Origin: Candidatus Bathyarchaeota archaeon
GTDB taxonomy: Archaea > Thermoproteota > Bathyarchaeia > Bathyarchaeales > Bathycorpusculaceae
DNA length: 64,000 nt
Assembly: GCA_026014685.1 (NCBI GenBank)
Contig: JAOZHW010000007.1
Coordinates: forward strand, 310,001-374,000
Direction of reading: 5' to 3'
Notes under the pieces: generated by a model
Seen by the model: the letters and a program-made list of their open reading frames with translations, nothing else
Database searches by the model: none
Told to the model about the DNA's origin: nothing
Part shown: in pieces, positions 3,196-45,152 of the stretch
How the letters are laid out: each line of letters opens with the position of its first letter
Numbering within the stretch: position 1 is the first letter of the stretch
Translations under genes and position numbers: made by a program

Positions 3196-3238
3196 GCAAA
3201 AAACTATAGTTCTGGGCCATGAGTATTCTTAGCAGTAA

Positions 3239-41432: not shown

Positions 41433-41717
41433 ATGGAATTCTCCAAAGTTTCTGGAACCAAAACCGACCACAAAGTAACCATATACGCCCTCAGCACCTG
41501 TGTCTGGTGCAAACTAACCAAACAATTCCTAAGCGACAACGGCGTCGCCTACGAATTCGTAGACGTAGACCTCCTCGACGAAACCGACAAAAGAAAAGTA
41601 CACGAAACCATCCTAACCAGAGGCGGCAGCCTAAGTTACCCAACTACAATTGTGGACGACAAAAAAATCATCACAGGCTTCCGAAAAGACCAACTCAAAG
41701 AGGCACTTGGAATTTGA
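41433..41717 (+). CDS. Glutaredoxin-like protein
   Basis: The 94-residue protein has the redox motif C23-V-W-C26 in 'VTIYALSTCVWCKLTKQFL', the cis-proline in 'LSYPTTIVDD' and the C-terminal 'ITGFRKDQLKEAL', a standard glutaredoxin/thioredoxin-like fold. I use ATG 41433. Its TGA overlaps the TTG start of the ferredoxin-thioredoxin reductase-type gene, so both are translated together and probably form a thiol-reducing pair. Confidence 0.88.
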   Translation: MEFSKVSGTKTDHKVTIYALSTCVWCKLTKQFLSDNGVAYEFVDVDLLDETDKRKVHETILTRGGSLSYPTTIVDDKKIITGFRKDQLKEALGI

Positions 41718-42289
41718 CCCCACTAACCATAGATTTTGTGCGAAAACGCGCCGAAGCCGACGCCAAAACCTACGGTTACTACCTAACACCCCAACAAGAC
41801 CTACTCCAAATGTTTCTTGAAGGATTAAAAGCCAACGAAGAAAGATACGGATATCCGGTTTGCCCTTGCAGACTTGGCACAGGCAACATAGACCTTGACC
41901 GAGACATCATCTGCCCCTGCGACTACCGCGACCCCGACGTAGCCGAATACGGCTCATGCTACTGCCGCCTATACGTCACCAAAGCAGTCTACGAAAGCCA
42001 AAACCTCCCCGAAGTTCCAGAGCGCCGTCCCCAAGAAAAAATCGCACGCGCATACGGAGTGCCAACAGCGGCGCCTCAAGTACCTCAGCAGTTCACTGTG
42101 GCACCGACACCTGAAACATCAAAACCTCAACCACCACCAAAACAGCCTGCAGTCAAAAAGAAACTGTGGTACTGCAAACAATGCGGCTACGTGGTGTACC
42201 GTGAAGACCCGCCCTACATCTGCCCGATCTGTAAGGCTAAACGGGAAATCTTTGCAGAAATAGATGCCAAAGTGGAGTTAAACGGTTAA
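41714..42289 (+). CDS. Ferredoxin-thioredoxin reductase catalytic chain fused to rubredoxin-like domain
   Basis: The N-terminal half shows the FTR cysteine pattern C50-P-C52, C67-P-C69 and C82-Y-C84 ('CPCRLG', 'CPCDYRDPD', 'CYCRLY'), which binds a 4Fe-4S cluster next to a redox disulphide. A Pro/Gln linker (about 115-145) leads to a rubredoxin-like iron site with C154-KQ-C157 and C170-PI-C173. FTR reduces thioredoxins with ferredoxin electrons; the built-in rubredoxin may be the electron feed. The TTG start overlaps the glutaredoxin stop. Confidence 0.88.
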   Translation: MTPLTIDFVRKRAEADAKTYGYYLTPQQDLLQMFLEGLKANEERYGYPVCPCRLGTGNIDLDRDIICPCDYRDPDVAEYGSCYCRLYVTKAVYESQNLPEVPERRPQEKIARAYGVPTAAPQVPQQFTVAPTPETSKPQPPPKQPAVKKKLWYCKQCGYVVYREDPPYICPICKAKREIFAEIDAKVELNG

Positions 42290-42439
42290 CTACCGTTCCA
42301 CTTGGATTTCGATTTTTTTCCAGTCTTCGCGGACGCCTTTTAGAGTTGTTACTGCACCCGTTACGGTGCCGTTGAGGATGCTTTCAACAAAGTCGTTTAG
42401 GGGAATAACTTTTCCATCTACCTTTAATTGCAAACCCAT
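42290..42439 (-). CDS. Small conserved-looking protein
   Basis: The 49-residue product ('MGLQLKVDGKVIPLNDFVES', then 'GTVTGAVTTLKGVREDWKK') is a compact alpha/beta sequence with no Cys. The GGTGA seven bases before ATG 42439 favours this start over the longer frame to 42472. It is convergent with the FTR gene (adjacent stops). The pattern recalls small archaeal proteins of unknown role. Confidence 0.6.
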   Translation of the reverse strand: MGLQLKVDGKVIPLNDFVESILNGTVTGAVTTLKGVREDWKKIEIQVER

Positions 42440-42524
42440 CAGTTTCACCTTAACAGTAAGGTAGCTTGCCAAAGCAAAAAAGCTTATCGAAAAAGCGGAC
42501 GGAAAGTTGATTTAAAAAATTTGG

Positions 42525-43962: not shown

Positions 43963-44622
43963 ATGACCACCCCACAAATAAACCTCAACCCAAAACAGCG
44001 AACCCAAAAAATCCTAGAACTACTCCAAAAACTCTACCCAAACGCCAAAACCGCCCTCAACTACACCAACCCCCTCGAACTCCTCGTCGCCACCATGCTC
44101 TCCGCCCAAACAACCGACGTAAGAGTCAACATAGTCACCCAAACCCTATTCAAAAAGTACCGCACCGCACAAGACTACGCAAACGCATCCATAAAAGAAC
44201 TAGAAAAGGACATACACTCAACGGGTTTCTATCACAACAAAGCAAAAAACCTCAAAGCCTGCTGCCAAATGCTAATGGAAAAATTCGGAGGGCAAGTGCC
44301 TAAAACAATGGAAGAACTAATTCAACTTCCCGGTGTAGCCAGAAAAACCGCCAACATTGTCCTCTACCACGGTTACGGCATAACCGCTGGAGTTGCCGTA
44401 GACACCCACGTGATGAGGCTTTCGCAGCGCTTGGGCTTAACAAAAGAAAAAGACCAAAACAAAATCGAACAAGACCTCATGGCCATAACACCCAAAGACC
44501 AGTGGATGCCGCTAACTGACGTGCTGATTTTCCACGGCCGCCAAGTTTGCATGGCAAAAAACCCCCAATGCAACGCTTGTGTACTGAACAAAATTTGCCC
44601 CTCCGCGTTTACCTTCAAATAG
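43963..44622 (+). CDS. nth: Endonuclease III
   Basis: The helix-hairpin-helix 'LPGVARKTANIVLYHGYG' carries the catalytic Lys128, and Asp147 follows in 'VAVDTHVMRLSQRLG'. The 4Fe-4S loop has C196-x6-C203-x2-C206-x5-C212. The enzyme removes oxidised pyrimidines and nicks abasic sites. Length (219) is normal. A TATA-like CTCTTTTATCC lies about 70 bases upstream. It is followed by a peroxiredoxin, giving an oxidative-damage neighbourhood. Confidence 0.93.
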   Translation: MTTPQINLNPKQRTQKILELLQKLYPNAKTALNYTNPLELLVATMLSAQTTDVRVNIVTQTLFKKYRTAQDYANASIKELEKDIHSTGFYHNKAKNLKACCQMLMEKFGGQVPKTMEELIQLPGVARKTANIVLYHGYGITAGVAVDTHVMRLSQRLGLTKEKDQNKIEQDLMAITPKDQWMPLTDVLIFHGRQVCMAKNPQCNACVLNKICPSAFTFK

Positions 44623-44675
44623 CATCAAAAATTTATAGCCCCAACACCTAACTTTGGGTGAGGACTGATTCTTGT

Positions 44676-45152
44676 ATGGTAAACGTTAAAGTAGGCGATC
44701 AAGCCCCCGATTTCACTTTGCTCGATGTCGATATGAACGCACGGAGTCTGCGTGAATTTTTGGGACAAAAAGTTGTTTTAGCCTTTTTTGTAGGCGCATT
44801 CACCGCCACATGCACCAAAGAGATGTGTACCTTTAGAGATTCTATGGCAAGACTGACAAACTTAAACGCCCAAGTTATCGGCATAAGCGTCAACGACCCC
44901 TTCTCAAACAAGGCATTCGCAGAAAAAAACCGTTTACCTTACCCTATTCTCAGCGACTACAAACGTGAAGTCATACGGCAGTATGGGTTGGAGTCAACGG
45001 ATTTTGCTGGTTTAGGGGGATACGTGGTTGCTAAACGGTCGATTTTTGTTTTAGACGAGAAGGGTGTTGTTCGCTACGTGTGGGTTTCAGATGACCCCAA
45101 TGTTGAACCGAACTATGAAGAAGTTCAAGCGGCGCTAACCAAGATTACATAG
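44676..45152 (+). CDS. Peroxiredoxin (AhpC/TSA family)
   Basis: The protein (158 residues) has the peroxidatic cysteine C46 in 'GAFTATCTKEMCTFRDSM', with C51 close by, and an 'FFVGAFT' replacing the usual FFPAAFT (Pro to Val-Gly). The rest ('QVIGISVNDPFSNKAFAEKN', 'PYPILSDYKREVIRQYG') is standard. It reduces hydrogen peroxide and alkyl peroxides. ATG 44676 is preferred over an upstream GTG. No reductase partner is adjacent, though the FTR/Grx pair lies 3 kb upstream. Confidence 0.9.
   Translation: MVNVKVGDQAPDFTLLDVDMNARSLREFLGQKVVLAFFVGAFTATCTKEMCTFRDSMARLTNLNAQVIGISVNDPFSNKAFAEKNRLPYPILSDYKREVIRQYGLESTDFAGLGGYVVAKRSIFVLDEKGVVRYVWVSDDPNVEPNYEEVQAALTKIT

Follow-up and report, generated by a model that had tools for sequence, protein, structure and literature searches.

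The window, a 64,000-nucleotide stretch of the genome of a Candidatus Bathyarchaeota archaeon, carries two overlapping genes on the + strand that very probably encode a ferredoxin:disulfide reductase (FDR) and its cognate glutaredoxin, a reading to which we assign a probability of roughly 0.88. The basis obtained here consists of the domain make-up of the two proteins, their invariant ligands, the conserved pairing of the genes, the co-occurrence of both genes in genomes, and the structural match of the ferredoxin–thioredoxin reductase (FTR) domain to FDRs of solved structure; the metal content, electron donor, direction of transfer, partner, and clients of the pair are what we infer. Such an arrangement has been described before as FDR, and the pair in the window would be its archaeal version in Bathyarchaeia.

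Gene Arrangement

The upstream gene (41433..41717, + strand; ATG at 41433, TGA at 41715–41717) encodes a glutaredoxin-like protein of 94 amino acids, and the downstream gene (41714..42289, + strand; TTG at 41714, stop at 42287–42289) encodes an FDR-type protein of 191 amino acids. As the initial annotation had described, the start of the FTR gene overlaps the stop of the glutaredoxin gene, sharing the four bases TTGA (41714–41717, + strand), which suggests that the translation of the two genes is coupled. The TTG start is supported by the ATG found at the same place in four relatives (loci L012, L026, L028, and L029), and a 4-base overlap occurs in 27 of the 29 loci of the window's class that have the glutaredoxin (the window's own counted), where the start nearest the match was chosen automatically at each locus. 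A chance open reading frame was ruled out by the family scores and the conservation, and a plasmid origin was rejected, the plasmid collection having yielded no match at E 1e-5.

Directly after the FTR gene lies a small convergent open reading frame (42290–42472, − strand) that has no Pfam match. Downstream of the FTR gene, on the opposite strand, 23 of the 80 named loci have a relative of this frame, at about 1.5 kb in L035 and within about 0.2 kb in the other 22; among the 30 class loci, counting that of the window, 17 have one.

Domains and Cysteine Residues of the Two Proteins

The glutaredoxin is the single match to Pfam Glutaredoxin (PF00462) in the whole genome, scoring 40.6 bits (cut-off 22.9). 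Its active site is C23-V-W-C26, Pro70 is probably the cis-proline, and these two cysteines and the proline are invariant in all 17 aligned sequences. Two narrower assignments were rejected: the match to NrdH (TIGR02194) reaches 44.4 bits, under the NCBIfam cut-off of 85.75, and that to the YruB subfamily is likewise under its NCBIfam cut-off.

The FDR-type protein, the only one with an FTR domain in this genome, consists of an N-terminal FTR catalytic domain (41732..42001, + strand; Pfam FeThRed_B, residues 7–96, 75.6 bits, cut-off 22), a Pro/Gln-rich linker (42032..42166, + strand), and a C-terminal rubrerythrin-type rubredoxin domain (42167..42253, + strand; Pfam RUBY_RBDX, residues 152–180, 39.9 bits, cut-off 26.5), so that the three-part composition proposed earlier is borne out by both the reading frame and Pfam. 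Two features of FDR membership are thus present, namely an FTR catalytic fold with three C-x-C motifs (C50-P-C52, C67-P-C69, and C82-Y83-C84) and a C-terminal rubredoxin domain with four cysteines (C154-x2-C157 and C170-x2-C173). By analogy with FTR, Cys50, Cys67, Cys69, and Cys82 presumably bind a [4Fe–4S] cluster, while Cys52 and Cys84 presumably form the redox-active disulfide. Tyr83, which we take to be the FDR form at this position, occupies the site of the FTR active-site histidine; the motif reads CYC in the window, ACYC in 4tpu, and ECHC in 7bzk.

The initial annotation had made the capacity of the fusion to carry iron depend on the conservation of the rubredoxin-like cysteines, and these four residues, together with the six of the FTR domain, are invariant in all 30 class loci, the window's included. 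All ten are likewise kept without exception across a broader alignment of 28 archaeal and bacterial sequences, which were picked by hand among rubredoxin-bearing loci, so that the presence of the rubredoxin domain in that set is by choice. The linker is much less constrained: between ERR and the first rubredoxin cysteine it measures 48 residues in the window protein, with 11 prolines and six glutamines, compared with 30–56 residues across the 49 loci L032–L080 and 22–42 residues in the 20 rubredoxin-bearing loci of L081–L111. The linker is probably flexible, and invariant cysteines combined with a variable linker fit two functional domains that are loosely tethered to each other.

The predicted model of the FDR-type protein has a mean pLDDT of 86.4 and a pTM of 0.72, with lower pLDDT at residues 111–150 and mostly low confidence in the linker. 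Its FTR domain matches 7pwe (Z 17.4, rmsd 2.6, 112 residues) and 4tpu (Z 14.9, rmsd 2.0, 101 residues) more closely than the plant-type FTRs (Z about 10), and the best structure match of its rubredoxin part is rubrerythrin (Z 7.0, rmsd 2.0, 41 residues). The model leaves the placing of the two domains loose, since the whole-length fit to 4tpu has an rmsd of 19, and the interdomain geometry was set aside as unusable because of the low confidence of the linker.

Conservation of the Pairing and of the Fusion

The initial annotation also raised the question of whether fusion and pairing recur in relatives, and both do. The 80 named loci, 59 of them archaeal and 21 bacterial by record titles, are the best 80 of at least 582 confirmed relatives. 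A glutaredoxin gene lies directly upstream of the FTR gene in 77 of these loci, and 69 encode rubredoxin in frame with FTR; the search patterns for these loci contain CYC and CPC, and the two motifs are not independent evidence there. In the three loci that make up the difference to 80, the contig ends (L034), no glutaredoxin was found (L056), or the glutaredoxin lies about 1 kb upstream (L099). For L056, the class genome that has a contig of this length (G041) carries a glutaredoxin on a different contig. The pairing with glutaredoxin is thus kept more widely than the rubredoxin domain, which is missing from the frame in 11 of the 80 loci and so is not needed everywhere for the pairing.

One of these 11 loci, L086 from Candidatus Solincola sediminis, lacks an in-frame rubredoxin through an in-frame TGA (3220–3222). 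In the CYC motif of FTR this codon occupies the position of the second redox cysteine, and beyond it the frame runs on into the rubredoxin domain. The TGA probably encodes selenocysteine; an FtrB double-selenoprotein family is already in NCBIfam.

Within the window's class, 29 of 30 loci have the glutaredoxin directly upstream of FTR. They are the top 30 from a search over the full length, which favors rubredoxin-bearing genes; they include the window's own locus (L002) and the near-identical L024 and L025, and the set overlaps the named one, as with L022 and L056, whose contigs share the length 10095. When loci of the phylum were found by the FTR domain alone, both the upstream glutaredoxin and the in-frame rubredoxin were present in 30 of 30, these being the best 30 of 37 matches; 14 of them belong to the window's class, counting the window's own genome, and 16 do not.

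The two genes also occur together at the level of whole genomes. Of 151 genomes of the class, 56 have both FTR and glutaredoxin, one has FTR only, 13 have glutaredoxin only (most of them with a weak glutaredoxin match), and 81 have neither. These counts ignore relatedness and combine an FTR and a glutaredoxin table taken as covering the same 151 genomes, the identifiers agreeing for those that are listed. They omit 20 genomes whose matches cover the rubredoxin part only; six of the FTR matches counted are weak, as are some of the glutaredoxin matches, and others of the latter are fragmentary. Even the window's genus does not have the pair throughout, an FTR match being present in 10 of 15 genomes (the window's own included) and not in five. 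In the genomes G049, G053, G073, G112, and G125, which all come from a single family of the class, a short FTR frame of 115–126 amino acids, too short for a rubredoxin domain, lies close behind the glutaredoxin.

Relation to Known Systems

The best solved match of the FDR-type protein is 4tpu (E 1.1e-35, residues 6–181), which is entitled in the PDB as the ferredoxin-dependent disulfide reductase of Methanosarcina acetivorans. Both proteins have an FTR catalytic domain followed by a C-terminal rubredoxin domain, and in the alignment they share the CPC, CPC, and CYC motifs with tyrosine in place of histidine; a gap in that alignment marks the longer linker of the window protein, and in the structure alignment the two are approximately 35% identical overall. 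The best solved match of the glutaredoxin is 5cax (E 6.6e-23), which has the same CVWC motif and which we take to be the methanoredoxin of M. acetivorans. A 2018 paper on FDR reportedly described both the rubredoxin center of the M. acetivorans enzyme and its reduction of methanoredoxin. A natural glutaredoxin/ferredoxin disulfide reductase fusion from Desulfotalea psychrophila, also of solved structure (7pwe), unites these two partners in one chain, in the order in which the window encodes them. Whereas the window proteins are separate, the fusion is a single chain of 196 residues that stops shortly behind the FTR domain (the match extends to residue 192) and has no rubredoxin domain.

FDRs are presented as archaeal and bacterial iron–sulfur enzymes related to the FTR catalytic subunit (PMC6262447), and a review lists FTR and FDR among the thioredoxin and disulfide reductases and describes methanoredoxin, which has been characterized with coenzyme M as its reductant (PMC7278568). 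MaTrx5 of M. acetivorans is described in a passage of PMC6262447 as being reduced by an FDR, while Table 1 of the same article places FDR in the MaTrx1 row.

The ferredoxin:thioredoxin reductase of plants and cyanobacteria has a catalytic chain folded like that of the window protein (Z about 10) and shares its C-x-C motifs. In contrast, the window protein has Tyr83 instead of histidine and an extra rubredoxin domain. The variable subunit FTRV (PF02941) has no match in the window's genome, which is 99.1% complete; among 14 control genomes, Synechococcus elongatus gave the only match to this family. A plant-type FTR was ruled out on these grounds, the lack of a variable subunit match and the tyrosine between the last two cysteines.

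Proposed Electron Route and Alternative Explanations

In the route that we propose for the pair, reduced ferredoxin would deliver single electrons to the rubredoxin iron, coordinated by Cys154, Cys157, Cys170, and Cys173, and the rubredoxin domain, moving on its flexible linker, would hand them one by one to the [4Fe–4S] cluster of the FTR domain. Together with the adjacent Cys52–Cys84 disulfide, the cluster would then carry out the two-electron cleavage of the glutaredoxin disulfide (Cys23–Cys26) through a mixed disulfide, and the reduced glutaredoxin would pass the electrons on to client proteins. The path from an iron site to a disulfide and on to glutaredoxin envisaged in the initial annotation stands in outline; its description as self-contained does not, as it leaves out the ferredoxin donor and the [4Fe–4S] cluster. 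The donor is expected to be a separate ferredoxin, with the rubredoxin iron acting as a relay to the cluster and disulfide.

The C-terminal domain could instead be a structural zinc ribbon with a holding or docking role, with ferredoxin reducing the [4Fe–4S] cluster directly, as in plant FTR. Four cysteines of this kind can hold zinc as well as iron, and the four-cysteine knuckles of the domain fit such a ribbon, as do weak Pfam matches below the cut-off (zf-C4H2 and FYVE_2), structure matches of the domain to MCM domains (Z about 4.6), and the existence of the 11 named loci that manage without it. Ferredoxin binds the catalytic subunit in FTR, according to a section of PMC9025218. However, the rubrerythrin rubredoxin-like domain is the only family over the Pfam cut-off, and rubrerythrin, over 41 residues, is the best structure match (Z 7.0), whereas rubredoxin B, at Z 5.0, is level with the MCM domains; a Z under 8 can mean a common arrangement only. 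The FDR of M. acetivorans is also said to have a rubredoxin center, and we regard a purely structural zinc site as improbable. It also appears unlikely that the main substrate of the reductase is a thioredoxin, with the glutaredoxin being reduced otherwise, for instance by a thiol coenzyme. Three thioredoxins are encoded in the window's genome, and the precedents of MaTrx5 reduction by the M. acetivorans FDR (a passage of PMC6262447) and of coenzyme M giving electrons to methanoredoxin (a passage of PMC7278568) lend weight to such a division of labor, but adjacency and co-occurrence tie FTR to the glutaredoxin, the two are fused in 7pwe, and a 314-amino-acid TrxB-like flavoprotein with a CGVC motif in the same genome is a possible thioredoxin reductase.

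A further suggestion of the initial annotation, that the pair may feed the peroxiredoxin at 44676, concerned a real gene, an AhpC/TSA peroxiredoxin (44676–45152; AhpC-TSA match 3.3e-37), which follows an endonuclease III gene in the interval 43963–45152. The one-strand order of FTR, endonuclease III, and peroxiredoxin recurs in nine of the 80 named loci; in L082 (Dehalococcoidales bacterium), the glutaredoxin gene is immediately preceded on its own strand by a peroxiredoxin gene (2103–2597, + strand), and L040, L049, and L054 have a weaker peroxiredoxin-like gene upstream on the minus strand, divergent from the glutaredoxin. The link itself fared less well, since the peroxiredoxin comes after endonuclease III in all nine loci. 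Endonuclease III was found in 19 of the 80 loci, at least 2.4 kb of downstream DNA being present in 66, and ten of these 19 have no downstream peroxiredoxin; the stretch covered beyond endonuclease III was 1 kb or more in eight of the ten and 353 bases in L035, and in L063 endonuclease III is on the other strand. With endonuclease III preceding the peroxiredoxin and an opposite-strand RHH gene standing between FTR and endonuclease III in the window, a link of the pair to the peroxiredoxin is possible but not specific, and a pair dedicated to this peroxiredoxin is quite doubtful.

Ribonucleotide Reduction and Significance of the Pair

If the glutaredoxin is reduced by the FDR as proposed, class III ribonucleotide reductase would be a plausible client, as the window's genome has two matches to PF13597 (NRDD) and none to PF02867. 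A title in the reference lists of PMC6262447 and PMC11846895 states that an FDR delivers electrons to the class III ribonucleotide reductase of M. barkeri. As this genome also has a single PF00462 glutaredoxin and a single FTR, Bathyarchaeia of this kind might even use their only glutaredoxin and only FDR as a dedicated ferredoxin route to class III ribonucleotide reductase. We put this forward tentatively, as a conjecture with the odds against it; an FTR match is absent from 94 of the 151 class genomes, which must reduce ribonucleotides in another way.

The FDR–glutaredoxin pair of the window offers a concrete candidate for the coupling of ferredoxin to protein thiols in uncultured anaerobic archaea, and its two genes keep their tight linkage in many Bathyarchaeia as well as in Methanomethylicia and several groups of bacteria. 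Should the dedicated route hold true, the synthesis of DNA precursors in uncultured Bathyarchaeia would be driven by ferredoxin and not by NADPH or formate.
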